IMG/VR virus record: IMGVR_UViG_3300044940_000706
Coordinates: 1-23,407 of that record
Direction: 5' to 3' (one strand)
Source of the DNA: a virus
DNA: 23,407 nucleotides
The notes under the pieces were generated by a model. That model made no database searches and was not told where the DNA came from. It was given only the letters and a program-made list of their open reading frames with translations. Below are positions 1-23,248 of this stretch, in pieces. The position numbers and the translations under genes are program-made. Each line of letters opens with the position of its first letter. The stretch's first letter is position 1.

Positions 1-663
1 TCATATTTTGCCTTCCTTCCGGGCTTGGTAACGGCTCCATGCGATATAGAGCAGCACCATTGCCAACACCGCGACGATAGCCCACGGCGCGGCCTGCGCC
101 AGCGTCGTTGCAAGCGGCATGGCGGGTTCCAGCGTTTCGATGACCTGTGACAACGCGCCGATGCCAACGCTGGCTACGCCGCCGATTTTGGTGGCAACCA
201 TCGTGTCCGTGCTACCGATAGGCTTAATCTGGTTCAGCGCATCCTTGGCGCTTGCAGGCGGCTTGGTGTCGATGTCGTTAAAGAATACATGGCCGCTGGT
301 GAAATACACCGGCTTCTTGCCCCGCGACCATGCCGGTTTTACCGCAGGCGTGTGATAGTGCGTGCTGGCATTGGTGGGGTCAACCAGCTGGTGATCGACC
401 GCTTTCATGGCAATCTGCACGCATTTATCGAACCATGCGCCATTTGCCTTGAATATCCGCGCCCGGTTTGGGTCGCTCGTATTCCAGCAACTGAATTGAT
501 ATGGCTGGATGCACACGGATTCCACGTCATCCGGCCAATTCGGGAGCGCGACCCGGTTCATTACCACGCAGGCGATGGCGGTGGCATCCTGAATATCATG
601 GGGTTTGGCCTCGCCGTAAAGGGTGCGTGCCAGCGTGTCGATATGTTCGGCTTTCGTCGTCAT
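1..663 (-). CDS. SleB-like cell-wall hydrolase (endolysin) with C-terminal membrane segment
   Basis: This is the probable endolysin, cutting peptidoglycan for host lysis. The N-terminal two thirds match the Hydrolase_2/SleB family: the LARTLYGEA motif carries the expected catalytic Glu, and it is followed by VVMNRV, QFSCWN and THYHTP, all typical of the family. The C-terminal third is a linker and then one hydrophobic helix (around APWAIVAVLAMVLLYIAW) ending in a basic tail. This suggests membrane anchoring, which is unusual for a soluble lysin. The start at 663 is chosen because GGAG lies 8 nt upstream; an in-frame ATG at 675 has no ribosome site. The stop codon is at the window edge, so the gene is complete. 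It is the last late gene visible, just after a small membrane protein, as expected for a lysis module. The family call is firm; the role of the membrane helix is inference. Confidence 0.85.
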   Translation of the reverse strand: MTTKAEHIDTLARTLYGEAKPHDIQDATAIACVVMNRVALPNWPDDVESVCIQPYQFSCWNTSDPNRARIFKANGAWFDKCVQIAMKAVDHQLVDPTNASTHYHTPAVKPAWSRGKKPVYFTSGHVFFNDIDTKPPASAKDALNQIKPIGSTDTMVATKIGGVASVGIGALSQVIETLEPAMPLATTLAQAAPWAIVAVLAMVLLYIAWSRYQARKEGKI

Positions 664-683
664 AAGTTTCTCCATTGGTTAAG

Positions 684-911
684 TTATTTCCAAGTCAGGT
701 TACCGGCGACAAAGCTGAGGAAGGCCACAACGCCAGTCCAAAGCCCTCCGACAATCAGCAACGTGCGAAGGCTGCCTTTGCCCTGATTTGCCAGTGCGGT
801 GAGCGCCTTCACTTCCTCCACCAGCCCATCCACGGTTTTGGTGAGCGTTTGAATTTGTGTATTCATGACGGCAAGCTGCGCCTGCACGTCTTTTTCTTCG
901 GTGGGTGGCAT
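684..911 (-). CDS. Small coiled-coil plus single-TM protein, holin/XhlA-like
   Basis: A 75-residue protein of unknown family. Residues 8-42 look like an amphipathic coiled coil (heptad-like spacing in QAQLAVMNTQIQTLTKTVDG). Residues 51-71 form one hydrophobic helix (LLIVGGLWTGVVAFLSFVAG) with a short tail. This plan resembles XhlA-type haemolysin/holin accessory proteins. Its place immediately before the SleB-like hydrolase supports a lysis role such as holin, holin partner or spanin-like factor. A good ribosome site (AAGGAG, spacer about 8 nt) precedes the ATG. A hairpin-T-tract terminator lies just upstream, so its expression depends on read-through or on an unseen promoter. The function is inferred from architecture and position only. 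Confidence 0.7.
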   Translation of the reverse strand: MPPTEEKDVQAQLAVMNTQIQTLTKTVDGLVEEVKALTALANQGKGSLRTLLIVGGLWTGVVAFLSFVAGNLTWK

Positions 912-937
912 GTCGTTTTCTCCTTTGGTTCGGGCAT

Positions 938-958
938 AAAAAAACCGCCTTGCGGCGG
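938..958 (-). terminator. Intrinsic terminator after the DUF2793 gene
   Basis: Read on the minus strand: stem CCGCC, loop GCAA, stem GGCGG, then seven T. It starts 8 nt past the stop of the DUF2793 gene. The GNRA-like tetraloop and uninterrupted T-tract make this a textbook Rho-independent terminator. It separates the tail genes from the lysis genes. The 12 bp GGCATAAAAAAA (plus-strand sense) at its downstream edge recur at the terminator after the capsid gene. Confidence 0.8.
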
Positions 959-965
959 CGGGGAT

Positions 966-1904
966 TTAGGCACTCAGAAGCGCGTACCACTTGCTGGAAG
1001 TGGCTGCCCAAAACAGGGCGTTTTTCCCTACCGCCAGCGAGAACGCGGCATTATTCGCCAGCGCGTTGATGCTGTGGCCGGAGGCCGGATAGACGTTCAT
1101 CGCACTCGCCCCGGCATTGGCCACAAAGATGAATTCGCCTTGCTCCGGCGAAGGCAGGATTGCGCCGGAACTTGCGGCAACGGTGGTGAACTGGTTGGTT
1201 TGCTTGGTGATGGCCGTGGCAGTGCCTTGCGTTGTGCCTGCCGCACTCAGGCCGGAGCCGTTTGCTTTCAGTGCTGCACGACCGCTACCGGCGAGCATTT
1301 TGAGGGAGTCATAAAACGTCGAACCATCCGGGGACACTTTCAGGGTGAAGTTGTCATCCCCCAGCAGGCCGAATTCCGCACGCGCTGACCAGTTAGTTTG
1401 AAATAAGAAGCCAGCCTTGTTCCCGGCAGCGTTCTTGTTCAGCTTAATCTGAAGATCGCCGCCGACATGGTTAAACAGGATGGCTTCACTCGCCACCGCC
1501 AGCTTGTTCGTGGAATCCGCAGTGGTATTCACGCCCAGCATGAACAGGTTTTGCAGCGATGTCGGCGTGGCCACCGATACGCCCCAGCTCGTACCATCAT
1601 AGGTGTAGAGGGCATTGGCATCCTTCGCCCACACCGTCAGGCCTTCCCACGGGGTGATGAAGTTCCAGCCAGTGGTGTAATAGGCCAGCGCCATTGCTTT
1701 ACCCGTCCATGCGCCCGTCGGTGAAGCGCCGACAATGTAGCAATCACCGGCCACCGGCGAACCGGGCGGCGTGTTGACGCTGACACTGACCATCGCGGCC
1801 TGTAGCAGCGCATCGAGGATGTCGAGCGAGGCGTTGTGCGTCACTTCTTTTTGGGCTTGGCTCGTGACAATATACGGCAAGCCCAGACGTGATGTCTGAG
1901 GCAT
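966..1904 (-). CDS. DUF2793 tail/fibre protein
   Basis: The N-terminal part (about 1-120) has the hallmarks of DUF2793: opening SRLGLPYI, QAQKEVTHN, and the PPGSPVAGDCYIVG and GWNFITPWEGLTVW segments. The family is typical of alphaproteobacterial phages and prophages and lies next to the host-specificity protein. The rest is Ser/Thr/Ala/Gly-rich and looks beta-structured (DGSTFYDSLKML and so on), which suits a tail appendage or receptor-binding fibre. A good ribosome site, CGGAG, lies 6 nt before the ATG. The gene sits 22 nt after the large tail protein and is closed by an intrinsic terminator. The family call is firm; the receptor-binding role is inference. Confidence 0.82.
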   Translation of the reverse strand: MPQTSRLGLPYIVTSQAQKEVTHNASLDILDALLQAAMVSVSVNTPPGSPVAGDCYIVGASPTGAWTGKAMALAYYTTGWNFITPWEGLTVWAKDANALYTYDGTSWGVSVATPTSLQNLFMLGVNTTADSTNKLAVASEAILFNHVGGDLQIKLNKNAAGNKAGFLFQTNWSARAEFGLLGDDNFTLKVSPDGSTFYDSLKMLAGSGRAALKANGSGLSAAGTTQGTATAITKQTNQFTTVAASSGAILPSPEQGEFIFVANAGASAMNVYPASGHSINALANNAAFSLAVGKNALFWAATSSKWYALLSA

Positions 1905-1926
1905 AGGATTCTCCGATTAAGTTGGG

Positions 1927-4900
1927 TTAAACGCTGGCTGCTGCCGGGTAGCCCCGGCCAACCACCGCCGATAGCTGATAGACTTTCACGATCATGCTGC
2001 TTTGTGCCGAACCGAAATCCGTTACCTGCTGCGCGGCGCTGTAGGCGACCGTCGGGCTGGTGGCAGTTAAGGTTCGCTTGAGTGTCAGGCCGCTATAGAT
2101 TTCCACCTCATAGCGTTCTGATTCCTCGCCCAGCGGAATGTCCACCCCGTCGCGCCATTCCGCATCCACGCGGGAGCGGCGCACCCAGCTGATGGTCAGG
2201 TTGGCCGAACCATCGCGCACGCCGGTAACATGCACCGGGGCGAACGGTTTCAGGTTTTTGCCGGTGTAGGTGAAGGCAATCTCGTCGGTGTTGCCCAGCG
2301 AGTTCCCGACGCTGACGGTTTTGTAATACAGTTCCCGCCCGATAAGGTTGTTAGCGATTGCGGTCGTATAAAGCGCCGGAGAAAGCAGAACGAAGCGGTC
2401 GCCGGGGTCATGTAACCCCATCGCCCATTCCGTACCCTGCCGCCCCCGCAAAAGCCGGGAAAGGCGGTATGTGTTCTCGCCGATCAGCACGGCATTCTGA
2501 AACTGCACCAGTTCCTCGCCAATCAATGCGGCGTTCGCCCCGTTGAACACGGCCAATTCGCTGACACTGGCAAGGCTGCCGGAACTGAGCAGCACTTCCA
2601 CCGTGTTGAACTCGTCCCACGTTACCGCCGTGCCATTCTCCAAGTCGGTGATAATAGCGCCGAATGTGGCCGCACCGTCGAGGCCTGCCAGTACGTTGAA
2701 GGTGTTGCCGCCATCCTCGCCACCGTCATCGGAGCGATAAATCGCCGCGCCGTTCCAGTTCGGACCATCTGCCGCTACGCCGATACGCAACAAGCCTTGG
2801 TTCTGCACTGTGTCCACCGGCAGCGGCGGCGCATCAATGAATTGCACCAGAGTTCCCGGCACTAGCACGGGCGGCTGGAGGTTGCTGCCGGTTTCACCGG
2901 GCGGCGAGTAGAAATCATACGAACTGATGTCTTCCGCCACCGCACTCAGTTTCATCATGCCGTTGGCCTCCATATCGGTTTTGACGACACGCATTTCATG
3001 CGCCACGCCGGATACGTTCACCGTGATGATGTCGGTCGGCTCAATCCGCACATATTTGGGCGGCAGGCTCAGGGAAAAGCTGATGCGCTCCTTCCATGTG
3101 CCGTAAAGCGTGACATCGGCCACTTTCTTTGCCTGCGTTGCACCCATCACAATCGGCAGGTTCATAGTCACCTGATCGACCGCTTTCACCACCTGACGCT
3201 GGGAAGTCTGCGTCACCGGGTCATAATTGAAAGGCCGGTCGATATAGGTCACGTTCACGCGCTGCGGTAGTTCCAATTCCTGCGCGTAATTGATTTCCAG
3301 CACGCTTTGCGCGTCACCCTTGCCGCCGGGGATTAAATCATCCTCCGGCACGTTCTTGATTGAGGCATTGCCACGCGGCACGCATTTCAGGATGCCATCG
3401 CTTTCCACCACATCGAAAAAGAACGCGGCTGTAAGCTGCTCAATGGCATTTCGCACCGTAATGGGCTGCTGGATGATATACCCCTCCAGCGTAGCAGTGA
3501 GGCGCGTTACGTCATAATCAGAGGCGGTCAGGCCTGCGGCTTGGAACAGTTCCGCCACCACCGCGCCAAGCGTTGATGCACCCAGCTTGCCGTTTACCCA
3601 ATGGCCGGTCGCCCAAAGGATGGAATCCTGCCAGACGTTTTCCAAGTCAGGCCAGAAGGAAAACGGGCGCGCATCCCACGTCCACACAAAGCGGCGCGGC
3701 ACAAGGTTGGCGTTGCCGGTTTCCAGCCTGCGCTCCTCCAGATAATCCAACGTCGCATCGAGTGCCACGCGCTGCGCCTGAAAATCCACCCGGCCACGGC
3801 TGGCACGGGGGAAGAAACTCTCGCTCGATGTCGGGTCATAGAACACGTTGGGCTGATTGGTGCATCCATCCACGCTAGGGAAACCGAACTCCGTAAACCA
3901 GACCGGCTTCATTTTGGAAGTCCAGCCGGTGGTCACCGCATTCGGGTTGGTGTGCGTGTTCTTCCACCAGTATTCGAGGTTTTTCCACGCATAGGCCGCG
4001 TTGCCGCCATAGCTGGTCTGGCCGGTGCGTGCGACGGAATCGAGGAAGTAATAATCCCAGCCTTCGCCTTTTTCCCAGTATTCTTTGATAAGCTCCGGGG
4101 TAATCTGCACCTGCGGCAGGTCTGGCGTAATCGGGAAATAGCTATCAATCCCCACCACGTCGATATTGGAGGATGCCCAAAGCGGGTCGAGGTTAAACCA
4201 CCCGCCACGGCTATGATATTCACTCCAATCCGCCGCATAGGTGATGATGGTTCCCGGCATCGCGGCTTTTACACTACCGGCCAGCGTCACCAGCTTAGAA
4301 ACAGCCGGATAGTTTCCCGGCGAATCCGTGTAACCTGTCATGCCCACCAGCTCCGAGCCGATGACAAACGCATCCACATCGCCACTCAGCAAATTGGCAT
4401 AGTGCATGATGAAAGCGTTATAGCCGTTGGTTTTGGTGAACCAGTTATTCGCATCGGTGGCATTGGCGGGAACGATGCGACCGCGCCACGGCTTCGGCTC
4501 CGGCGTGATGGTATCCACGAAAATCATGGGATAGAGCATCACATTCAGGCCACGGGCTTTCAGCTCCGCGCAGATTTGCACCACCGTATGGTCGGAGGGC
4601 GTGCCGCCATAAGTCGGTTTCCCATCGCCGAAATTTAGCACCACGGAGGCGGAAGCACGGCTGATACCGGCCACGCTCCAATCCTGCGGCAACACCTGCG
4701 TTGTGCCTTGGAACTCCACTTTGGGAATGATGGTGCAGGCTCCGGCATCGGTGCTGGTGGCAAACCACGTCACCACCACCGCCACCCATTCGAGGTTCGG
4801 CAGGTTTTTAATCAGCTGGTCGATTGCCACCAGCACATCGGCCTTGCCATCGTAATTGTGCATGTTGAGGGTTTTCTTTTCGCCGCTGGGCGTGAACGCC

Positions 4901-5682
4901 CCGCCGAAATAGGCGAAATAGCCATCCTGCTTGGTGGTGTTCTGCGTGCCATAGACGAACTCGCCAGCACCCGGAATCATCACGATGTCTTTAACCTTTT
5001 CCTCAACGCTGGGGCTGAATTTCAGCGTGCGGCGAATCTCAAACGTAAAATTGGGGATACGGTTGCCGTATTCGGCCAGCGGGAAATCCTCAATCACCAC
5101 ATAGGCGCGACCACGATAGGCGGGAATGGTTCCCGCAGGCAGATATTTGGCGATGATGTCATCCACTCCCTGTGTTTCATCGCCGAAATGCACGTTGTAT
5201 TTGCCTTGGGAGGCCGATAGCACGTCTTCTGTCAGCACCTTGCTATCCGCCCATACGCGGATGACTTCATCAATCGGACCCTCGCAAATGGCAATCGCCA
5301 GTGTGACGAAATAATTATAGGTGATCGTGGTTTGGCTCGTGGTGGTTTTGCCGCCACCGCCGCCACCTTTACCGCCGCCGCTGGAAGTTTGTGTGCTGGT
5401 GGTTTCGGTGCGAACTTCCTTAATGTCCGTTGACCAGATCACGTTACCGGCCAGCCGCATCGTGCCATACACCTTGGGAATCATGTTGCCGTAGGTGGAA
5501 ACCTGCGCCCGGAGGTCAGCAAGGCGCGGTCCTTCCTGTGCTGGCAGCTGCACGCGCTGGGTTTTCGGGAAAAACATCCCCGCCGCCATGCCGCCGAGAT
5601 TCGCGCCAAGCACAGCGCCGGACGGACCACCCAGCACAAAGCCGGTCACGCCGCCAACAACAGGTAGGACTATATCAGCCAT
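1927..5682 (-). CDS. GTA-type host specificity / baseplate hub protein with TIM-barrel domain
   Basis: A 1251-residue tail-tip protein, the equivalent of gene 15 of the Rhodobacter-type gene transfer agent. The N terminus (4-36) is hydrophobic and Gly-rich, and a Gly/Lys linker lies near 99-113. Residues about 285-610 form the GTA TIM-barrel, glycoside-hydrolase-like domain. Two likely acid residues stand in IGSELVG (E444) and WFTEFG (E598), as in retaining glycosidases. After that comes a gpJ-like phage tail domain (about 650-1000), then a C terminus with a fibronectin-like segment near 1150-1240. It probably forms the tail tip, contacts the cell surface and may degrade envelope glycans. Its ribosome site is weak. 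In GTA-type clusters it directly follows NlpC/P60, but here a plus-strand gene is wedged between them. Confidence 0.88.
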   Translation of the reverse strand: MADIVLPVVGGVTGFVLGGPSGAVLGANLGGMAAGMFFPKTQRVQLPAQEGPRLADLRAQVSTYGNMIPKVYGTMRLAGNVIWSTDIKEVRTETTSTQTSSGGGKGGGGGGKTTTSQTTITYNYFVTLAIAICEGPIDEVIRVWADSKVLTEDVLSASQGKYNVHFGDETQGVDDIIAKYLPAGTIPAYRGRAYVVIEDFPLAEYGNRIPNFTFEIRRTLKFSPSVEEKVKDIVMIPGAGEFVYGTQNTTKQDGYFAYFGGAFTPSGEKKTLNMHNYDGKADVLVAIDQLIKNLPNLEWVAVVVTWFATSTDAGACTIIPKVEFQGTTQVLPQDWSVAGISRASASVVLNFGDGKPTYGGTPSDHTVVQICAELKARGLNVMLYPMIFVDTITPEPKPWRGRIVPANATDANNWFTKTNGYNAFIMHYANLLSGDVDAFVIGSELVGMTGYTDSPGNYPAVSKLVTLAGSVKAAMPGTIITYAADWSEYHSRGGWFNLDPLWASSNIDVVGIDSYFPITPDLPQVQITPELIKEYWEKGEGWDYYFLDSVARTGQTSYGGNAAYAWKNLEYWWKNTHTNPNAVTTGWTSKMKPVWFTEFGFPSVDGCTNQPNVFYDPTSSESFFPRASRGRVDFQAQRVALDATLDYLEERRLETGNANLVPRRFVWTWDARPFSFWPDLENVWQDSILWATGHWVNGKLGASTLGAVVAELFQAAGLTASDYDVTRLTATLEGYIIQQPITVRNAIEQLTAAFFFDVVESDGILKCVPRGNASIKNVPEDDLIPGGKGDAQSVLEINYAQELELPQRVNVTYIDRPFNYDPVTQTSQRQVVKAVDQVTMNLPIVMGATQAKKVADVTLYGTWKERISFSLSLPPKYVRIEPTDIITVNVSGVAHEMRVVKTDMEANGMMKLSAVAEDISSYDFYSPPGETGSNLQPPVLVPGTLVQFIDAPPLPVDTVQNQGLLRIGVAADGPNWNGAAIYRSDDGGEDGGNTFNVLAGLDGAATFGAIITDLENGTAVTWDEFNTVEVLLSSGSLASVSELAVFNGANAALIGEELVQFQNAVLIGENTYRLSRLLRGRQGTEWAMGLHDPGDRFVLLSPALYTTAIANNLIGRELYYKTVSVGNSLGNTDEIAFTYTGKNLKPFAPVHVTGVRDGSANLTISWVRRSRVDAEWRDGVDIPLGEESERYEVEIYSGLTLKRTLTATSPTVAYSAAQQVTDFGSAQSSMIVKVYQLSAVVGRGYPAAASV

Positions 5683-5796
5683 GAGGTTGCTCTATTGAGG
5701 GTTGTTTTTTGGATTAAGAATCGCAAAGACTCTTGCAGTAATATGTGTAGAATTAACGCTTAGTTATTCTTCTAAAACGCTTATCATTCGGGCAGC
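5683..5796. promoter_or_regulatory. Divergent intergenic region with 21-bp-spaced direct repeats
   Basis: This 114-nt gap is A/T-rich and lies between the start codons of the tail gene (minus) and the cargo gene at 5797 (plus). It is the longest non-coding stretch in the structural region. AACGCTTA occurs at 5755-5762 and again at 5776-5783, exactly 21 bp apart, so on the same face of the helix. Candidate -10 boxes for the plus strand are TAGAAT (5748-5753) and TATCAT (5782-5787), but neither has a good -35. It probably holds the cargo gene's promoter and an operator; no exact promoter can be assigned. Confidence 0.45.
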
Positions 5797-6780
5797 ATGT
5801 CAAAATTCTCACTATTTCAGCGGTTCATAGAGCAAGGCACGGTGAGTGAGCCAGATGGCATCCCGAACCCGCTTTATGCTTTGCCATCAACCGTAAATTG
5901 GATGCGTGCATATGCGATACTGATTGAGGACGAAGAACTCGATTTCCAGTCGGCAAAAAATTTTTATAAATCCGTGCAACCACGAAAAATGAGTCCTTCT
6001 GAAGAAAATTCTGTCTTTGAACATTTACTGCTTGCCCTGCATCAGCTTTCAGCATTGCAGGCACTGGCAGAAGTGCCGTGTCAGGCTGATATTGCGCGTG
6101 TTGCCAGCGTTGCATGGTATTATGGGATTTACGCAGCCGTCAGCGCCATGATCGCGGCAAATGATGGTAGTGTTCAAGATAACCACACAAAAACAGCAAA
6201 CACTTGGGATAGGCAGTTCGGGCAGAACTCCCTGATCCCACATCCTTTTGACCTGCGAGTGACAACTTTAGTGAAGGCTGATGCAGACATTCAAATTGAT
6301 GCCATCAGAAAAGGACCGAAGATTAATCTAGTAAACACCCCGACGACACCTTCAGAAGCACATCAAGCTATTTGCGGATATTTGTCAGGTACGCGAAATT
6401 GGTGGCAATGGAAGACCGAGTTAGATATTAGGCGTGATAAGGCGTTTAAGGATTTAGATGTCACAGATTTCCGCACTAAAAAGGCGCGAACTTTGCGTGA
6501 TGAGCGATTAAAGAAGCAATGTATTTCATTCATGCATCAAGCTTTCAGATTCCGAGGAAAGGCTAATTACCGTGAAGCCTTATACCTTGCTCATGGCAAA
6601 ACAGTAGAAGGCAACATTTCAACTTTCGTGCCTGACATGGCAAAAATCTTAGAAGCCTTTACTGCTATGGCTGGAGCATATTGCTTCAAGCGTCTTGGTA
6701 AGGAATTACAGGATAGCTTTTTAGCAGACCTCGATAAACACCGCTCTTTCAGCCTTGATCCACGGGACATCTGGTCTTGA
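5797..6780 (+). CDS. Opposite-strand cargo (moron) protein with HEPN-like motif
   Basis: A 327-residue protein of no family I can name. Two regions recall HEPN folds. The first is a helical stretch near 104-140 (SVAWYYGIYAAVSAMIAAND, followed by H130), which has the shape seen in HEPN proteins. The second is an R-X6-H motif at R259-H266 in ANYREALYLAHG, matching the RX4-6H catalytic signature of HEPN ribonucleases. No signal peptide or membrane segment is seen. It lies on the strand opposite the late operon, is more A/T-rich than its flanks, and separates NlpC/P60 from the large tail protein. Its stop is 1 nt from the stop of NlpC/P60. No strong ribosome site is visible. I infer a phage-defence or toxin-like moron. 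The HEPN assignment rests on motif alone. Confidence 0.75.
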   Translation: MSKFSLFQRFIEQGTVSEPDGIPNPLYALPSTVNWMRAYAILIEDEELDFQSAKNFYKSVQPRKMSPSEENSVFEHLLLALHQLSALQALAEVPCQADIARVASVAWYYGIYAAVSAMIAANDGSVQDNHTKTANTWDRQFGQNSLIPHPFDLRVTTLVKADADIQIDAIRKGPKINLVNTPTTPSEAHQAICGYLSGTRNWWQWKTELDIRRDKAFKDLDVTDFRTKKARTLRDERLKKQCISFMHQAFRFRGKANYREALYLAHGKTVEGNISTFVPDMAKILEAFTAMAGAYCFKRLGKELQDSFLADLDKHRSFSLDPRDIWS

Positions 6781-6781
6781 G

Positions 6782-7267
6782 TCATTTTAATGATTGCAGT
6801 TGTTTGTTTTTGAAGCGGTAGGCATGGGTCAGCATCCGCCGCCATGTGTCGGAAAGCGGCTGCTCGACCACCCGGCCAGCACTGGAATTGCAATGAATCA
6901 GGCCAAGCCCACCGGTCGGATAAATGGAAAGCAGCGCCACATGCTGCGGGTCTTTGAATGTGCGAAAAAGCAGCACATCGCCCTCAGACATTTTATCAAG
7001 CGGTATGGGGCACAGGTATTTCTCGATGCAGCCAACCAGCCGCCCACGCTCCGGGTACATGGAATAATCGGTTTCATCCGCACGCGAGAGCGGATTGCCA
7101 GCGCCATCCTGTAAGCCCAACTCATCGGCCACGCCAACAATCAGGCCGATGCAATCCACGCCGCCCGGACCCGCCGCCGATTTCTTGAGCCGCCCTTGAT
7201 GGTGATAGCGCGTGCCAAGCCATGTGCGTGCCTGCACGACGATTTGCGATGATGAAACTCTAGCCAT
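6782..7267 (-). CDS. NlpC/P60 family tail-associated peptidase
   Basis: The equivalent of GTA gene 14. It is a 161-residue cysteine peptidase that probably cuts peptidoglycan stem peptides during DNA entry and is mounted at the tail tip. The catalytic Cys is in GGVDCIG (C39). The His candidate is H109 in PQHVALLSI, with H125 in LIHC nearby. The opening ARTWLGTRYHHQG is typical of the family. It overlaps the DUF2163 gene by 8 nt, so the two are probably translationally coupled. The length is normal for the phage family. Confidence 0.9.
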   Translation of the reverse strand: MARVSSSQIVVQARTWLGTRYHHQGRLKKSAAGPGGVDCIGLIVGVADELGLQDGAGNPLSRADETDYSMYPERGRLVGCIEKYLCPIPLDKMSEGDVLLFRTFKDPQHVALLSIYPTGGLGLIHCNSSAGRVVEQPLSDTWRRMLTHAYRFKNKQLQSLK

Positions 7268-8715: not shown

Positions 8716-9264
8716 ATGGTTGGTCTTGAATGGTTAAAATTTTTGGACGTGACAAAGCTTCCACTGCGGTGGTGGTTCGTCGTTGCGTGTCTTTCTGGCG
8801 GGATATTGATTATTCCCGAAGATTATGCCGTGACTCTAGGAATCGAACATTTGCGGAACGAGTTCAGGCCATACTTTGGCCTTGGCGCTCTATTTTCAGT
8901 CGCAATCTTGGGAGTTAATCTCGTATTAAAATTATGGTCAGCTGTTTCTGGCAAACTGAGAATTAAGGCTAAAAGAAGCGCCGCTCTCGCTTCATTGGAT
9001 AGGCTATCTGTATATGAGGCGGCAATCCTCGCGGGTTGCTATTACACAAACAGCCAAACCATCAATGTTCGCATAGATAATGCCTATGCGCGCTCATTGG
9101 TTGATAAAGGGCTAATGAAGCGAATTTCTGGCTCTGGAAATATGATGGAATGGCCTCATACAGTGTATGATTTCGTGTGGGATCATATTCCAATTCTTTT
9201 GACAAAATTCTCCGAAGAAGAACTGCAGAATGCCTTGCATCCTGCTGTTGACCCTTGGCGCTAA
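8716..9264 (+). CDS. sieB: SieB-like superinfection exclusion membrane protein
   Basis: A 182-residue inner-membrane protein. It has two hydrophobic helices, about 18-34 (WWFVVACLSGGILIIP) and 54-74 (FGLGALFSVAILGVNLVLKL), then a cytoplasmic part with LDRLSVYEAAIL and VDKGLMKRI. This plan and the pattern LKLPLRWW...P.DY closely resemble the superinfection exclusion protein B family of P22/lambda-type prophages. Those abort lytic growth of other phages in a lysogen. It is on the strand opposite the late genes, A/T-richer than they are, and sits between the tape measure and DUF2460. Its stop is 1 nt from the tape-measure stop. No ribosome site is visible. The family call is from memory of sequence pattern; which phages it excludes is unknown. 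Confidence 0.75.
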   Translation: MVGLEWLKFLDVTKLPLRWWFVVACLSGGILIIPEDYAVTLGIEHLRNEFRPYFGLGALFSVAILGVNLVLKLWSAVSGKLRIKAKRSAALASLDRLSVYEAAILAGCYYTNSQTINVRIDNAYARSLVDKGLMKRISGSGNMMEWPHTVYDFVWDHIPILLTKFSEEELQNALHPAVDPWR

Positions 9265-16923: not shown

Positions 16924-17688
16924 ATGAACGAAGTAGATGCGTTTTCAAAAACCGCTGTTGAGGCGGTAGAAAAACTGTTTCAAGCGGCTAAAGCGCAGGA
17001 TGAATTTGCCTATGTCTTTGCATTGCTCGGAATTAACTCCGGAATTGAGGATGCAGGATGGCAACCAATTAATGAAACGCGCCAGTTAATGCGTGACATC
17101 GTAAGCATCGTAAATACTCCTTTAGAGGATTATACAAAGATGCGCTTGTTGCTGCTGATGTACTGCCAAATTACCGAGGCAAGCTACCTCTATCATGTGC
17201 TGTACAACATGCTTCTCACCATCGAATTCGAGAGTCCTCCAAAGGTTTTTAGTTTTCTTGAACAATACCGAAAAGGTGTTCCACCATCTGTAAAATCCAA
17301 GGTTCAACAGATATGTGATAAAGCGGTTACGTTAGGGCATCCCGAAATCAAAACGCTGCTGAATGCCACGTTTCACGCTCCCATTCGCAATGCGGTTTCC
17401 CATGCCGATTTTATACTCTACGGCGACAAGCTCCGGCTAAAACACACTGGTAGGGAAATCATGGAGATTCCCGCTGATGACGTGGTGCTAATCATCAATA
17501 AAATGGTCAATTTTTTTGACATTGTTTTTATGAAATTGCAGCAGCACAGGACATCCTATCAGGATGGGTATGTAATAAGAAATCGTAAGAATAAGGCTGG
17601 AATGAACCTTTCTAGTGTTACGCTTTCTGCTCATCCGCAATACGGCGTGACTGGATTTAGCACATCTGATCCTCTCCCTATTTGGTAG
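16924..17688 (+). CDS. Opposite-strand cargo (moron) protein with HEPN RX4H motif
   Basis: A 254-residue, mainly helical protein of no family I can name. PIRNAVSHADFILYGDKLRL contains R155-NAVS-H160, the RX4H signature of HEPN ribonucleases. It is followed by strand-like residues and a helix (IINKMVNFFDIVFMKL) as in many HEPN toxins and abortive-infection proteins. No membrane segment or second enzyme domain is visible. It lies on the plus strand inside the late operon, between the large terminase and DUF6148, is visibly A/T-rich, and has only a weak GAG ribosome site. Its TAG directly abuts the terminase TAA (0-nt gap). I infer an RNA-cleaving defence moron; the motif supports it but activity is unproven. 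Confidence 0.78.
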   Translation: MNEVDAFSKTAVEAVEKLFQAAKAQDEFAYVFALLGINSGIEDAGWQPINETRQLMRDIVSIVNTPLEDYTKMRLLLLMYCQITEASYLYHVLYNMLLTIEFESPPKVFSFLEQYRKGVPPSVKSKVQQICDKAVTLGHPEIKTLLNATFHAPIRNAVSHADFILYGDKLRLKHTGREIMEIPADDVVLIINKMVNFFDIVFMKLQQHRTSYQDGYVIRNRKNKAGMNLSSVTLSAHPQYGVTGFSTSDPLPIW

Positions 17689-19515
17689 TTAGTTAAAGTT
17701 CCAATCGTCGTAGCCAATCCAGCCCTCGGTCTTGGTGGCTGGTGGCTCGGCTTCTTGTTTCTTCAGGTTCTGCCGTTCCTGTTCGCTCCGCAGCGCATCC
17801 AAATTCGGGTTCAGGATGTGCAGCGCGGCCAGCCCGTACACACGGCAATCCAGCGCCTCGTTGCGTTTTCCTTTCGGCATCACCCACACCCGCGTCGGGT
17901 GGCCGTTGATAAACTTGGTCTGAATCCGCTCGGCGGTGAGCTGCTGGAAGTATTCCTCCGGGTAGTCAGCCGGGAAATGGCAATAGCCCGGACCCGGCTG
18001 GTGAATCTTCAGCCGCGAGTAAATCATCTGCTTTGCCGTATCGGTGCCGAGGGTGAACAGCTTCACGCGCAGCTTGTTGGCCTTGCTGAATTTACTCACC
18101 AGCGGTTTGCCTGCCGTGGATGCGCCTTTGATCGCATACACCCGCGCATGTTCCCGGCGTTTACAGAATTCATAGACTTTCTGCGTGTGATGACCGCCCG
18201 TATCCACACAGGCCGCCAGCACCGATAACGTGCCGCCATCCGCACGAGGTATGGTCTGCCCCAGCACCTTGTCGAGGTCTTCCCATACTTTGTTCTGTGC
18301 CGGGTCGCCGTGGATGACATGGTATTGCAGCGACCAGCTTTCCTGACCAACGCCCCAGCCAATCACTTCCGCTTCCAGCCGGTCGCCTTGCACGTCCACG
18401 CCAGCGGTGATGACCACCACACCATCAGGCGCGACACGTCCCCAGTTTTCCTTGCGCCCTAGCAGACCGGATGCGTCGATGCCTTCGCTCGCTTCCTTCC
18501 ATGTTTCGCCAAGGCTGGTATTGACCCACACTTTCAGCGTTTCCGGCAGGCGCTTGGCCTTCAGGAAACTTGTCACCATTTCCGACCAGCGCACCCACGG
18601 GCTGTAAAGCTCTGAAATATGAAAGCCTGCAACGCCGTTAAACGGGGCAGATGCCCACCATTCACCACGCGCCAGCATCCATTGCTTATCGCTTTCGCGC
18701 AGCTTCGCTTGGCAATGCTCGCACTCGTAATAAGCCGCTTCCGGCTTGGCCTTATCGAACTTCAGCTGCGCCCAGCACAGCACCTGAAATTTTTTGCATT
18801 CCGGGCATGGCACATGAAAGCGGCGCATGTCGCTTTGCTGATACCGTGCATCAATCTTGCTTTCGCCCTCGATGGTCGGCGTGCTGGCCGACACCAGCAG
18901 CCGATTCCAGAAAGTCGTGGTGCGTTTCTGCGCCAGCGAACCGGGGTCGCCTTCCGCACCGGCTGAGGATGGGTAACGATCTTCCTCATCCAACAGCACG
19001 ATGCGGATAGGCCTGCTTGCCAGCGACGAAGGGCTGTTTGCTCCCGCCATCGTCAGGTGACCGCCAGTAAATTTCTTATGCAGCAGCGTGTTGTCGCTGT
19101 TGCGGGTCTTGGAATCCTTAAACAGATTGCCCAGCGCCTCTGTATCTCGAATCATCGGTGCGAGGCGGTCTTTGCTCCATGCCTCCGACATTTCTAGCGT
19201 CGGCTGGATAAACAGGATGGGCGACGGGTCTTGGTGAACGAAATAGCCGAGAATATTATTCAGAATCTCGGTTTTTCCGATTTGCGCCGAGGTCATAAAC
19301 ACCACCTCGCGCACGCCGGGTTCATTCACCGCATCCATCATTCCGCGCTGGTATGGCGCTCGGTCAGTCCTCCATCTTCCGGGTTCGGCGCTTGCCTCCG
19401 GGCTTAGTTTTCGGTGCGTGTCTGCCCACTGGCTTACTGTCAGTTCCGGGGGCGGCATCCATGCCAACGCCACCTTCCGCCGCAGCTTCTGATACAGTGT
19501 CGGTTGCGTCATCAT
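17689..19515 (-). CDS. Terminase large subunit (GpA family)
   Basis: The packaging motor and nuclease, 608 residues. The family opening PPPELTVSQWADTHRKLSPE is followed by Walker A SAQIGKTE (76-83) and Walker B IVLLDEEDR (172-180). A probable zinc-binding pair follows (CPEC 237-240, CEHC 265-268). The nuclease region opens at VDVQGDRLEAEVIGWG (D374) and includes CVDTGGHH. The start is uncertain: ATG at 19515, its neighbour at 19512, or 19458. None has a good ribosome site. With 19515 it overlaps the small subunit by 152 nt, so translation is probably coupled. GpA enzymes usually cut at cos-like sites; no cos site was identified here. Confidence 0.94.
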   Translation of the reverse strand: MMTQPTLYQKLRRKVALAWMPPPELTVSQWADTHRKLSPEASAEPGRWRTDRAPYQRGMMDAVNEPGVREVVFMTSAQIGKTEILNNILGYFVHQDPSPILFIQPTLEMSEAWSKDRLAPMIRDTEALGNLFKDSKTRNSDNTLLHKKFTGGHLTMAGANSPSSLASRPIRIVLLDEEDRYPSSAGAEGDPGSLAQKRTTTFWNRLLVSASTPTIEGESKIDARYQQSDMRRFHVPCPECKKFQVLCWAQLKFDKAKPEAAYYECEHCQAKLRESDKQWMLARGEWWASAPFNGVAGFHISELYSPWVRWSEMVTSFLKAKRLPETLKVWVNTSLGETWKEASEGIDASGLLGRKENWGRVAPDGVVVITAGVDVQGDRLEAEVIGWGVGQESWSLQYHVIHGDPAQNKVWEDLDKVLGQTIPRADGGTLSVLAACVDTGGHHTQKVYEFCKRREHARVYAIKGASTAGKPLVSKFSKANKLRVKLFTLGTDTAKQMIYSRLKIHQPGPGYCHFPADYPEEYFQQLTAERIQTKFINGHPTRVWVMPKGKRNEALDCRVYGLAALHILNPNLDALRSEQERQNLKKQEAEPPATKTEGWIGYDDWNFN

Positions 19516-19963
19516 CTTTGGCGAGTTCGGTTAGCGCCTCATAAATGCTGTGTTTTAGGAACCGCTCGATTTCGGCGGGTTCCTGCATCACGGCGATCTG
19601 AAAGGCTGTTTTGGTCGGCAGCGCCAAAAGCCGCATCCGGCAGGCGCTGATATGCTGGAGCCAATCGGTTTCCACGGATTCAATCGCCACCAGCTGGTTA
19701 CGCATGGTGGCCACTTCCAATTCTGTTTTGTCTGCCTGCGCTTTAATCAGGCGTGCGCGTTCGTGGTGCGTATCCTGCGCGGAAACGCCGCTCCCGTAGG
19801 CGCGGTCTTGCAGATATTGCACATACTGCTGAACGCAGCGTACCAGGTCATATTTGCCTTTCTCTGGTTTGGGGATGATTCCATCCCGCGCCAGCTGCTG
19901 CACTCGTCGCTCGGTCAGGTTCAAAAACCGTGCGATCACGGCGACTTTGTGGAGAATCTGCAT
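19364..19963 (-). CDS. Terminase small subunit (Nu1-like)
   Basis: A 199-residue DNA-recognition subunit of the packaging enzyme. The N-terminal winged helix-turn-helix (VIARFLNLTERRVQQLARDG) matches Nu1. Next come helices with HERARLIKAQADKTELE and CRMRLLALPTK, and a low-complexity basic end (KPGGKRRTRK). That end overlaps the large-subunit start, so its composition is probably constrained by two frames. An AGGA site precedes the ATG. It lies directly after the CmoA-like gene. Confidence 0.88.
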   Translation of the reverse strand: MQILHKVAVIARFLNLTERRVQQLARDGIIPKPEKGKYDLVRCVQQYVQYLQDRAYGSGVSAQDTHHERARLIKAQADKTELEVATMRNQLVAIESVETDWLQHISACRMRLLALPTKTAFQIAVMQEPAEIERFLKHSIYEALTELAKDDDATDTVSEAAAEGGVGMDAAPGTDSKPVGRHAPKTKPGGKRRTRKMED

Positions 19964-19975
19964 AAGGAATTCCTG

Positions 19976-20653
19976 TCATGACGTGATGACCCATCCTGCA
20001 AACTCTCCGAATCGAAACCATTCTGCGGCATCATCACCCAGCATCACAGGGTCAAGCGGTCGCTGCACCCCTCCGAGTGACAGTTCTTTGGCAATGATTT
20101 GTTCTGCTTCCACCCCGGCAGCCACTTTGCCAGCCAGCGTCAGCCGCCATAGCACTGTTGCCTGATAGCCGGTGGCCGCTTGGCATTTGTCCACGATGAT
20201 GATGGCTCCACCGGGCTTCAACGCTGCTTTCAGCTTGGCGATGAAGGCGGCACGCGCACCCACCGGCATGAACATCATCACCAGATAGCAAATGGCGACA
20301 TCAAACGGCTCAAAGTCATAGCGGCAGGCATCCATCTGGATGAGGTTCTCCTTGCCGGGACCATCATACCGGGCGCACATTTCCGCGCTTGGCTCAATCG
20401 GCACCAGCCGCGCCTGCCGCTGCGCGAGGGCAGCTTCCAGCGAACGGCCTATATTGCCGGTGGATGCGCCGATGTCATAGACCAGCCCACCTTGCGGGAT
20501 GTAATGACGGGCGATATGCGCCACCGCGCCGGTAACCAGATCATACCACGGCAGCTGCTCACGCACATGCAGGTTAAATCCTTTGGCTACCGAGGCGTTC
20601 TCGAATGTCCACTCTTTGGGGATGTGGATGGCGTTATCGGTAGTTCTGTCCAT
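19976..20653 (-). CDS. CmoA-like SAM-dependent methyltransferase-fold protein
   Basis: A 225-residue class I methyltransferase fold. Motif I is VYDIGASTGNIG (58-69), and GGAIIIVDK lies at the motif VI strand. Across its length it resembles CmoA, the carboxy-SAM synthase of tRNA wobble modification. The opening EWTFEN with a helix and PWYDLV, the MMFMPVGARAAFIAKLKAALKPGG block and the final WFRFGEFAGWVI all parallel CmoA. The CmoA segment holding the Arg that binds the carboxyl group looks shortened. It is therefore either a divergent Cx-SAM enzyme or an ordinary methyltransferase. It overlaps the HAD-like gene by 67 nt and precedes the terminase. The substrate is unknown; modifying phage or host nucleic acid is speculation. 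Confidence 0.8.
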   Translation of the reverse strand: MDRTTDNAIHIPKEWTFENASVAKGFNLHVREQLPWYDLVTGAVAHIARHYIPQGGLVYDIGASTGNIGRSLEAALAQRQARLVPIEPSAEMCARYDGPGKENLIQMDACRYDFEPFDVAICYLVMMFMPVGARAAFIAKLKAALKPGGAIIIVDKCQAATGYQATVLWRLTLAGKVAAGVEAEQIIAKELSLGGVQRPLDPVMLGDDAAEWFRFGEFAGWVITS

Positions 20654-21048
20654 TGTTCGTTCTCAACTATTTTGATCGAAGGAATGCCGTACTCCGCATA
20701 CATCGCGTGCGTGCGGGGATTGCTTTCAATCGCTAGATATGGCGCGTTTTGCCCATGCTTCGGAAAGACATGCTGCTCCAGCATGATGCGTTTCGCCTCA
20801 TGCGGTGGCTTGTGGTAACGGTTGAAAAACGCCTCCTGCGGAGTCCACCCGACCTTGAAATAGATGCTATCGAGCGTGGCCTGCCGGTGCATTTCAGGCC
20901 GCGCTGTCATCAGGATGGTGTGGTATGGCGCAACCAGACTCACCAGCCATTCGCGGTATTTTTCATGCTGAATCTGCATGGCAAACGGGCGTTTCTTTTC
21001 CGTGCTGTTAGCTACCAGCGTGTAATTCAGGTCGAGCAAGATAATCAT
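20587..21048 (-). CDS. HAD-like protein with DxN active-site motif
   Basis: A 153-residue HAD-fold protein. Motif I is LLDLNYTLV: D6 is kept but the usual second Asp is Asn8. Motif II is ILMTARPE (T48), K86 is a candidate Lys in PHEAKRI, and motif IV is replaced by IESNP (108-111). The second Asp is the general acid/base of phosphatases, so catalysis may be altered, or it may be a phosphate-binding or nucleotidase-like variant. It starts inside the stop of the ParB-methyltransferase gene (ATGA overlap) and overlaps the CmoA-like gene by 67 nt. No clear strong ribosome site is seen. The role is unknown; it is one unit of the cassette next to the terminase genes. Confidence 0.75.
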   Translation of the reverse strand: MIILLDLNYTLVANSTEKKRPFAMQIQHEKYREWLVSLVAPYHTILMTARPEMHRQATLDSIYFKVGWTPQEAFFNRYHKPPHEAKRIMLEQHVFPKHGQNAPYLAIESNPRTHAMYAEYGIPSIKIVENEQWTELPITPSTSPKSGHSRTPR

Positions 21049-22559
21049 AACTTCATTCCCAGCCGTTGTTCAAAGGCAGTAATGGCTTCCTCCACAAGCC
21101 CCATGCGGCTACCGTCAGGATACGGTAGGTCGAACTCAAAGGCGATAGCTGCTTTCAGTCTTTTCGGATTGATAGCCAGTGGCTTAGAGCATACGGCTTG
21201 CACGTTACTGTTGCTTTCATTCACCTGCACCTTGGCAAAGAATTCCTTGAACAATTCGTAGAACTCTTTTTGCGAATGGTACTTCTGCACCTTGGGCGAT
21301 GTAGCGATGTCACCGAGCGTGATGCCCGGTTCGTAATCCAGCTTGAACAGTACCGCGCCGGACTGCCGCTCATTCAGCGAATGGTAACCACTCAGCTGCT
21401 TGAGGTTGATATGGTTGCTGGCCGATGCCACCGCGTAGAGGCGTGTGGCATCATCCGCCAGCGCCGCGCAGATGCAGGCGATATGCTGCCGGTCAGCTTG
21501 GAACGGCACGCTATTCAGCACGCTGGATATGAAGATGGACGACCAGCGCAGCTTGTCCGTGCCAATGGCGTGCAAAAACTCCCGCGTCAGCGCAAGACTC
21601 TGCGCCTTATCAATCTCATCGCCTTCATTCACCCGGTACGGCTCGAACGGCGTGACGCTGATACCCAGCTTCCGCAGGATGCGCGTTTCATGCAAATGGC
21701 CTGCGCCGAAATCCAGCACACACCGGCCATGCTGCTTAATCCAGCGATCACGGTTCGCCTGATTATCCATGTCGAATGCCTTAGCGGTCGAATCACCGGC
21801 AACCGCGAAGATGAAACCACGGCCAAGGTTGTTGCGAACCTGCCGGAGGCGGCGGAACGAATTATGCCGCAGCAAATCTTCGTAGCGACGGTGGATGTCA
21901 AAATCCATCGAGAGGTAATTCAGCATGGCTTCCGCTAGTTTGCCTTCCTCGTCGGTGACAAACACGACCGGAACCTGTGCAAGCCCCAGTTCAGCACCGT
22001 GCTGTAACCTACCTATCCCGTTTACGACCCGGTAATCCCGCGTAGCGACGATAGGCATGGTGATGCCGCGCCGCTTGAGCGTTTTAGCAATGTTGAGCGA
22101 GTAGGCTTTCCAGCGTCCCTGATTTGCTTTCAGAAACGGTGCGATGGGGTGCATCTTTGCATTCAGGCATGGGTAAAACTCCGGCGTGTTCACCTCCTTA
22201 TCGGGAATGCACTCCGCCAGCTTCCGCACGTCCGTTGCCTTCAGCTGCTCGTTAATTTTCGCTACCGTGTCGCTCTGACCGAGGTCGTTGGTGGCGCGGT
22301 TAAACACCACGTTCACGCCCTTACGCTCCGCTAAATCCATCGACCGGGTGACTTCCAGCGGCACCTGTTTCGCCCCCATCCGGCACGCCACATGATGACG
22401 CTGGTGGCCGGAAATGATTTCACCGTCGGGTGTTGCGTAAAGCGGCAGGAGGAAGCCGAGCTTACGCAGTGACAGTTCAATCAGATCAAGCCGCGCCGGG
22501 TCAGCAACACGCGGGTTGTAAGTAGAGGGTTCAATCTCTGTGACATCGACCAGTTTCAT
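21045..22559 (-). CDS. Double ParB-like plus methyltransferase-like protein
   Basis: A 504-residue protein. A first ParB/Srx domain (1-90) has ISGHQRHHVA at 50-58. A second (about 140-205) has VVNGIGRLQHGAELGL at 178-193. The C-terminal half (about 275-385) has a Rossmann-like motif I VLDFGAGHLHE (281-291) and FEPY, as in SAM enzymes. No D/N-PPY motif of DNA amino-methyltransferases is seen, so a canonical restriction-type methylase is unlikely. The stop overlaps the next gene by 4 nt and the start overlaps the preceding ParB gene by 4 nt (ATGA). ParB/Srx folds bind nucleotides and DNA. A role in phage DNA modification, partition or packaging control is possible, none proven. Confidence 0.72.
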   Translation of the reverse strand: MKLVDVTEIEPSTYNPRVADPARLDLIELSLRKLGFLLPLYATPDGEIISGHQRHHVACRMGAKQVPLEVTRSMDLAERKGVNVVFNRATNDLGQSDTVAKINEQLKATDVRKLAECIPDKEVNTPEFYPCLNAKMHPIAPFLKANQGRWKAYSLNIAKTLKRRGITMPIVATRDYRVVNGIGRLQHGAELGLAQVPVVFVTDEEGKLAEAMLNYLSMDFDIHRRYEDLLRHNSFRRLRQVRNNLGRGFIFAVAGDSTAKAFDMDNQANRDRWIKQHGRCVLDFGAGHLHETRILRKLGISVTPFEPYRVNEGDEIDKAQSLALTREFLHAIGTDKLRWSSIFISSVLNSVPFQADRQHIACICAALADDATRLYAVASASNHINLKQLSGYHSLNERQSGAVLFKLDYEPGITLGDIATSPKVQKYHSQKEFYELFKEFFAKVQVNESNSNVQAVCSKPLAINPKRLKAAIAFEFDLPYPDGSRMGLVEEAITAFEQRLGMKL

Positions 22560-23149
22560 AATCCTAACCGCCGTTTAAGTTCTGCGATGATTTCCTTTTT
22601 CTCGAACCCGGCGGATTGTTTGATGTCCTCCAGCCATTCGAGGTATTGCTCACGCGGGATAGGGAAACTGTATGCGCCGATGCGTGCGGTGGTGTCGGCT
22701 TCCTCGATGTCATCATCATCGTCTGAGCCAAAACCATCTTCCAGCAGGCCATCCACCGAGGCCTTGATGTCCCGCAGTTCTTCATCGTTGAACCCCAATA
22801 ACTCCGCGCTAAATGCCGCTTCCTCCAGCTCTACGATTTCCAGCTGCAGAAGCGCCTTGTCCCATTCCGATTCCTCGCCCACGCGATTGTCCGTGATGCG
22901 ATAGGCTTTGATTTGCTCCGGCGTGAGGTCGGTAGCGATATGCACCGGCACCTTTTTCAGCCCCAGCCGTTTCGCCGCCTCGTATCGGACATGGCCGACG
23001 ACAATGACCATTTCACCATCCACGACAATCGGCTGGCGGAAGCCAAACTCCTTGATGGAAGCCGCGACTTTCTCCACCGCGTGCGCGTTAATTCGTGGAT
23101 TTCGTGCATACGGAAGCACCTGATCCACCGGCATCAGTTCTATTTTCAT
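22556..23149 (-). CDS. ParB-like N-terminal domain protein
   Basis: A 197-residue ParB/Srx-fold protein of the type often found beside phage terminases. MKIELMPVDQVLPYARNPR, EFGFRQPIVVD, VVGHVRYEAAKRLGLKKVP and YRITDNRVGE are the family blocks; GHVRxxA is the signature. It ends in an acidic stretch and a helix (EYLEWLEDIKQ). No separate DNA-methylase domain follows in this protein. The start at 23149 matches the family N terminus; an ATG at 23161 would add four residues. Neither has a strong ribosome site. It starts next to the operator-like region and leads a four-gene overlapping run toward the terminase. Confidence 0.82.
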   Translation of the reverse strand: MKIELMPVDQVLPYARNPRINAHAVEKVAASIKEFGFRQPIVVDGEMVIVVGHVRYEAAKRLGLKKVPVHIATDLTPEQIKAYRITDNRVGEESEWDKALLQLEIVELEEAAFSAELLGFNDEELRDIKASVDGLLEDGFGSDDDDDIEEADTTARIGAYSFPIPREQYLEWLEDIKQSAGFEKKEIIAELKRRLGL

Positions 23150-23248
23150 AAACACACCCATTTCGTTTTTTTGACCGACCCATTTCGTTTTTTGATTTCT
23201 GGAAGCTGTTGAGATTACTCAATAACAGCACCGAAAAAACGAAACGAA
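23150..23248. promoter_or_regulatory. Divergent control region with repeated operator-like motifs
   Basis: CCATTTCGTTT occurs at 23158-23168 and 23180-23190 in the same direction, 22 bp apart, each followed by further T and GA. The reverse complement occurs at 23242-23252, overlapping the plus-strand ATG. Between them is an imperfect palindrome: GCTGTT at 23205-23210 and AACAGC at 23224-23229, with an inner TTGAG-ATTA-CTCAA at 23209-23222. TTGACC at 23171-23176 could be a -35. This looks like a regulated divergent promoter pair, but no full promoter could be fixed. Confidence 0.6.

Follow-up and report, generated by a model that had tools for sequence, protein, structure and literature searches.

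What does a virus gain from four overlapping genes that combine ParB-like domains, S-adenosylmethionine (SAM) folds and a HAD-like fold? Such a set lies on the minus strand, at positions 19976-23149, of the 23,407-nucleotide stretch of viral DNA that was analysed in full (IMG/VR record IMGVR_UViG_3300044940_000706, positions 1 to 23,407; hereafter the window). On comparative grounds, we think it likely that this cassette is a phage DNA-modification module based on carboxy-SAM (Cx-SAM), in which a ParB-methyltransferase fusion (ParB-MT) serves as a carboxymethyltransferase of a type other than the cytosine-C5 methyltransferases (C5-MTases) and as the analogue of the phage enzyme CmoX. All four open reading frames (ORFs) were confirmed, and consecutive genes overlap by 4, 4 and 67 bases:

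22556..23149, minus strand: ParB-like protein, 197 amino acids (ORF; ParB_N of Pfam, E 6e-9; phrog_620, E 1.9e-49)
21045..22559, minus strand: ParB-MT, 504 amino acids (phrog_5475, E 4e-107)
20587..21048, minus strand: HAD-superfamily protein of the T4 Pnkp-phosphatase type, 153 amino acids (phrog_32036, E 1.6e-25)
19976..20653, minus strand: CmoA-like protein, proposed carboxy-SAM synthase by predicted activity, 225 amino acids (best NCBIfam model TIGR00740, CmoA)

For the ParB-like gene, an alternative start at 23161 would add 4 codons. The tally of three ParB-like domains, two SAM folds (in ParB-MT and the CmoA-like protein) and one HAD fold, as given in a preliminary description of the window, was borne out by the ORFs, by profile matches and by a structural model of the HAD protein.

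ParB-MT and CmoX alternate beside CmoA

Natural DNA modification from Cx-SAM was reported only in December 2025 and with one type of transferase: CmoX, a C5-MTase, draws on the Cx-SAM made by phage CmoA to form 5-carboxymethylcytosine, the ligase CmoY adds glycine, and ParB genes were noted nearby (Yang et al., PMC12783734). We surveyed 51 loci from the window CmoA and 153 further loci from two alignments that represent different CmoA lineages, 204 in total. Among the first 51, ParB-MT was present in 25 and a C5-MTase in 23, none had both, and 3 were cut by a contig end. In the second survey, ParB-MT was present at 48 loci and a C5-MTase at 89, again never together; the remaining 16 loci had neither, and almost all of these are truncated near CmoA. 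Altogether, exactly one of the two, ParB-MT or a CmoX-type enzyme, is encoded at 185 of the 204 loci, and in almost every one of the other 19 the sequence breaks off next to CmoA. The window CmoA-like protein itself is 46% identical to Mcat8 CmoA, which adjoins a CmoX-type C5-MTase. The CmoX hallmarks, SPPC and Arg350, occur in full in 84 of the 91 CmoA-linked C5-MTases (most of the others are truncated), and the C5-MTases found within ParB-MT loci have, where alignable, the Asn of ordinary methylases at the Arg350 position.

How often has the partner changed? Parsimony requires 25 partner changes on the CmoA tree, at least 10 of which are forced by well-supported branches, and 13 changes, 5 of them forced, on a smaller CmoA tree. 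That two unrelated enzymes have repeatedly been swapped behind the same cofactor synthase is our main reason for proposing that ParB-MT and CmoX both use Cx-SAM, and we regard the linkage of ParB-MT to this cofactor as well supported by the comparison.

The accessory gene was found to follow the transferase. In a first tally of non-redundant loci (92 with ParB-MT, 23 with CmoX), HAD accompanied ParB-MT at 71 loci and CmoX at none, whereas CmoY was present at 13 of the CmoX loci and at none of those with ParB-MT. A later survey gave 45 of 48 (ParB-MT) versus 0 of 89 (CmoX) for HAD and 0 of 48 versus 36 of 89 for CmoY-type genes. Phylogenetically independent pairs agree for both HAD and CmoY without a counter-example, although there are only 5, a number below significance on its own. 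The window cassette does not encode CmoY, an ATP-dependent amide ligase of the Asn_synthase type, and the same is true of almost every ParB-MT locus.

Two side observations concern annotation and variation of the CmoA neighbourhood. In two staphylococcal phages (L007 and L008) the CmoA-adjacent C5-MTase has GSPC and a Gly at the Arg350 position, and could either contact Cx-SAM differently or be an ordinary methylase; L008 also encodes a CmoY homologue. Phage CmoA genes are often annotated as "tRNA methyltransferase" (for instance in L007), probably wrongly for most.

The four genes are kept together across phyla

Is the cassette a unit, or an accident of this window? The four genes recur together in phages and in genome bins from at least 9 phyla, with a variable gene order and a terminase that is often not adjacent. 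An independent search of viral contigs found 80 ParB-MT loci; of these, 79 have a CmoA-like gene (adjoining a phage CmoA being a trait of CmoX as well), 73 a separate ParB gene and 66 HAD, against only 40 with the terminase large subunit gene (terL), and from this difference we conclude that the linkage is not due to chance. HAD lies on the opposite strand in Gordonia phage Evaa, CmoA lies upstream in L045 and L172, and in Samunavirus PA_L9 the cassette sits among replication genes; in many relatives it adjoins the terminase, as in the window. The fully sequenced genome of Evaa has no annotated methyltransferase besides ParB-MT and CmoA. Clustering of the neighbours around ParB-MT loci without preset families returned no further constant member, the clusters consisting for the most part of antisense ORFs and structural genes of phages.

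The genes thus do co-occur elsewhere, a check that the preliminary description had itself named, and the linkage across phyla, together with the interchange with the proven CmoX, lends good support to its suggestion of a coordinated system for nucleic-acid modification. The connection to packaging that it drew does not hold in general, as judged from the terL count and the position of the PA_L9 cassette.

ParB-MT joins ParB-like domains to a class-I transferase fold

ParB-MT comprises a ParB domain (residues 1-93), a second ParB-like domain (about 130-215), a class-I SAM-fold transferase (about 220-463) and a conserved tail (465-504), and its match to phrog_5475, a family with no assigned function, spans residues 2-501 of 504. 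Residues 3-75 match ParB_N (Pfam, E 1.7e-6), phrog_12047 and TIGR00180 pick out another ParB-like stretch at about 156-210, and the SAM fold matches Methyltransf_23 (E 3.5e-4). In the AlphaFold model (mean predicted local distance difference test score, pLDDT, 90.6), the ParB domain resembles ParB bound to a cytidine triphosphate analogue (Z 11.8, root-mean-square deviation (rmsd) 1.6 Å), and the box-II motif SGHQR is invariant in the family alignment, both of which predict a ParB/CTPase fold with the box-II Arg. The separate ParB-like protein is likewise predicted to have this fold, with the box-II motif GHVR and its nucleoside triphosphate (NTP)-binding Arg. No full-length match to ParB-MT was returned by a Foldseek comparison with viral structures.

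Could ParB-MT simply be a divergent CmoX? Its fold refutes membership in that family: ParB-MT has no C5-MTase domain and matches Methyltransf_23 instead of PF00145, the combination of C5-MTase fold, SPPC and Arg350 is not found in it, and the cassette contains no C5-MTase gene. That ParB-MT works in the manner of CmoX is the best-supported reading. The SAM-site motifs DFGAG (283-287), E306 and NSVPF (349-353) are kept in 138 closer homologues, with NSVPF at the motif-IV position instead of DPPY/NPPY. In the same homologues R231, R237, R357, K423 and Q425 are invariant and K426 is nearly so. K423 and K426 lie in an insertion that follows the fifth strand, where CmoA has its Arg199, and R231 and R237 lie just before the core; by position, these four residues (R231, R237, K423 and K426) are candidate carboxylate contacts.

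The HAD protein resembles the phosphatase domain of T4 Pnkp

The HAD protein falls below Pfam significance, and its AlphaFold model (pLDDT 92.8) is closest to the phosphatase of T4 Pnkp (Z 16.1, rmsd 2.2 over 124 residues; next different family, Z 12.5). Motif I reads D-L-N-Y-T, so that the nucleophile D6 is retained, the usual Asp at +2 is an Asn and the classical pattern DxDx[TV] is not found; D-L-N is present in nearly all family members. The remaining motifs are T48-A-R50, K86 and E108-S-N, and D6, T10, T48, R50, K86, E108 and S109 are invariant in the family alignment. With the 3'-phosphatase domain of T4 polynucleotide kinase the protein shares the fold, the nucleophile Asp, the motif-II Thr with Arg, the motif-III Lys and the acidic residue of motif IV, whereas it differs in the Asn for the +2 Asp, in the Glu-Ser-Asn of motif IV and in standing alone, without a kinase domain. 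As modelled it is a HAD fold, and its motifs do not imply classical phosphatase chemistry.

Hosts and cyanobacterial variants

ParB-MT copies of 98% identity occur in alphaproteobacterial and Rickettsiales genome bins, and on the basis of this identity the window phage probably infects hosts of these types. Among 13 host genomes, 12 encode prephenate dehydratase, a sign of prephenate supply, and only the two Vibrionaceae (Vibrio and Photobacterium) carry a CmoA above cut-off, so that the phage CmoA would be needed in most hosts.

Divergent ParB-MT proteins were found in cyanobacteria, flanked by three Asn_synthase-type ligases in Nostoc linckia z4 (L203:6805-13683 and L212) and beside one partial ligase of this type in a Leptolyngbya bin (L205:7039-9441), in both cases without HAD. 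The SGGxDS loop of these ligases is intact. Since Asn_synthase-type ligases need a carboxylate, their adjacency to ParB-MT independently supports a carboxymethyl product. The same strand of Nostoc linckia z4 carries CmoA and two ParB genes some 10 kb upstream. ParB-MT with a ligase and without HAD represents a third arrangement of the module.

Points against carboxymethyl transfer and rival explanations

Several observations weigh against a transfer from Cx-SAM by ParB-MT. CmoA was not detected in three loci (L026, L146 and L148), and L135, a Rickettsiales host bin of the nearest relatives, gave no prephenate dehydratase match, although this bin may be incomplete. In sequence, ParB-MT does not specifically resemble either CmoX or CmoB, its carboxylate contacts are candidates only, and the best fold match of its transferase domain in the PDB is METTL6, a tRNA m3C enzyme (Z 13.8, barely above unrelated entries). 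The window CmoA-like protein has a SAM fold (Methyltransf_25, Pfam E 1.2e-9) and TIGR00740 is its best NCBIfam model, yet it scores 49.5 bits (E 4e-13) against a cut-off of 193.3; SpCmoA, the verified enzyme of Synechococcus phage S-B43, scores 115.6 bits and is likewise under the cut-off. Nor does the window protein have Arg199, which in E. coli CmoA binds the Cx-SAM carboxylate (PMC3663124): E190 stands at E. coli position 199, and there is an Arg at position 207. We dismissed this loss as proof against Cx-SAM because SpCmoA, too, has Glu at position 199, with Lys at 207. Across the CmoA family these positions covary (R199 with E203 and V or S207, versus E199 with R207, K207 in SpCmoA), and from this pattern it looks as if the basic residue has shifted. 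Both charge-swap groups partner ParB-MT.

The principal rival holds that the module modifies tRNA, ParB-MT acting like CmoB and retuning host translation through a Cx-SAM-dependent change to a nucleoside of the anticodon loop. Bacterial CmoA does serve tRNA cmo5U, and METTL6 is tRNA-modifying. However, many unrelated small-molecule methyltransferases score almost as high as METTL6, which led us to drop any functional reading of that match, and the ParB domains of the fusion, the ParB partner in both modules and the repeated interchange with the DNA-acting CmoX (PMC12783734) speak against a tRNA target; owing to this interchange, the tRNA-only view of CmoA was given up as the leading one, and we consider it unlikely. 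Quite unlikely, in our judgement, is a reading in which ParB-MT methylates DNA from SAM in the ordinary way and the CmoA-like protein is a methyltransferase that serves some other function, as might be argued from the many phage ParB proteins fused to predicted DNA methyltransferases (PMC12704722) and from the low score and missing Arg199 of the window CmoA-like protein. Such a view is at odds with the nearly obligate CmoA-like linkage, which includes Arg199-bearing proteins, with the strict alternation of ParB-MT and CmoX, with NSVPF in the place of DPPY/NPPY and with a verified SpCmoA that lacks Arg199 as well.

ParB-MT might, on the other hand, be a sensor or regulator that transfers nothing to nucleic acid, for example in a counter-defence in which it and CmoA jointly deplete SAM. 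SAM depletion by CmoA has been raised as a possibility (PMC12783734) and phage SAM lyases are known, but we hold this to be very unlikely given the intact SAM-site motifs and invariant active-site-like residues of ParB-MT, its alternation with a transferase and the adjacent amide ligases of cyanobacteria. Hardly credible is a collection of unrelated passengers in a terminase-proximal cargo region, which the adjacency to terminase in the window and many relatives could suggest and which the survey has already refuted, the genes co-occurring across contexts, orders and strands (as in Evaa, Samunavirus, L045 and L172).

A model for the cassette

If the cassette is, as we favour, a Cx-SAM-based DNA-modification module, the CmoA-like protein would make Cx-SAM from SAM and host prephenate, and ParB-MT, a class-I, non-C5 enzyme with two putative ParB/NTPase domains, would move the carboxymethyl group from Cx-SAM onto a base of the phage DNA, thereby taking the place held by the C5-type CmoX in the known system. 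DNA is suggested as the target by the analogy with CmoX and by the ParB domains. The separate ParB protein and the corresponding domains of ParB-MT may bind both NTP and DNA, and may load the transferase or guide it; HAD may process the carboxymethylated product or an intermediate, at the point for which other modules have CmoY. The purpose would likely be to shield phage DNA from host nucleases. We further put forward, with slightly less than even confidence, that natural DNA carboxymethyltransferases include a second class, represented by ParB-MT and structurally unrelated to CmoX, which acts on an atom other than cytosine C5, that the resulting new base is processed by HAD, and that phages have repeatedly swapped ParB-MT with CmoX behind the same Cx-SAM supply.

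Setting of the cassette in the window

The minus strand of the window carries terminase, portal, capsid and a gene-transfer-agent (GTA)-like tail module, with the cassette at the right end and directly upstream of the terminase genes, which are neighbours outside the proposed system; terS starts 12 bases downstream of the cassette.

19364..19963, minus strand: terminase small subunit, terS (phrog_57, E 2.7e-30)
17689..19515, minus strand: terminase large subunit, terL, of the GpA type (GpA_ATPase, 2e-93; GpA_nuclease, 1.8e-102)

The tail module (1-7267, minus strand; Rcc01698/GTA_TIM, NlpC/P60 and a cell-wall hydrolase) is combined with a lambda-type terminase and portal. A SieB superinfection-exclusion protein (8716-9264, plus strand; PF14163, E 3e-17) lies amid the tail genes on the opposite strand and is probably lysogenic cargo. 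Two further plus-strand genes amid the structural genes (5797-6780 and 16924-17688) have a lower G+C of about 0.47-0.48 and no Pfam or PADLOC match, and are candidate cargo or defence genes. The sole PADLOC match in the window was a Type II methyltransferase model, and since it arose only through the ParB domain, the cassette was not assigned to a named defence system.

Significance and comparison with known systems

ParB-Methyltransf_23 fusions (a 2025 survey, PMC12704722) and the CmoA-CmoX pair (PMC12783734) were already known. We found no paper that joins ParB-MT with CmoA and none on base modification in Samunavirus, in a search that left preprints and most subscription journals outside. 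If ParB-MT is indeed a second, unrelated transferase, Cx-SAM would be a shared phage currency served by interchangeable enzymes, and a new DNA base would probably be present in growable phages (Gordonia phage Evaa, Aeromonas phage HJ05 and Samunavirus) and in prophages of cultured strains. Our reading also proposes functions for phrog_5475, for phrog_32036 and for those phage "CmoA" genes that bear a tRNA-methyltransferase annotation, and places phage ParB-methyltransferase fusions in a chemical context.

The preliminary view that no known pathway fits fully proved only half true: the phage Cx-SAM pathway (PMC12783734) accommodates the CmoA part, whereas ParB-MT and HAD have no assigned place. 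With the CmoA-CmoX-CmoY system the cassette shares a CmoA beside a transferase, often with ParB, the same CmoA lineages serving both modules, and probably Cx-SAM as donor. It differs in that its transferase is class-I, ParB-fused and non-C5 as opposed to a C5-MTase with SPPC and Arg350, and in having HAD in place of CmoY, which is often but not always present in CmoX modules. The bacterial CmoA-CmoB pathway for tRNA cmo5U34 (PMC3663124, PMC4482062) likewise has a CmoA homologue and, in the cassette probably, Cx-SAM; by contrast, no CmoB was seen in the cassette, which has ParB domains and a partner interchangeable with a DNA enzyme. The phage ParB-methyltransferase fusions (phrog_498; N6_N4 and Methyltransf_23 fusions, PMC12704722) resemble ParB-MT in pairing a ParB/CTPase fold with a SAM-fold enzyme and in being enriched in prophages, and the PF13489 (Methyltransf_23) fusions of that survey probably include the ParB-MT family. 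ParB-MT is set apart from them by its second ParB domain and C-terminal tail, and by the link to CmoA and Cx-SAM, which is absent from that survey (its text does not contain "CmoA").

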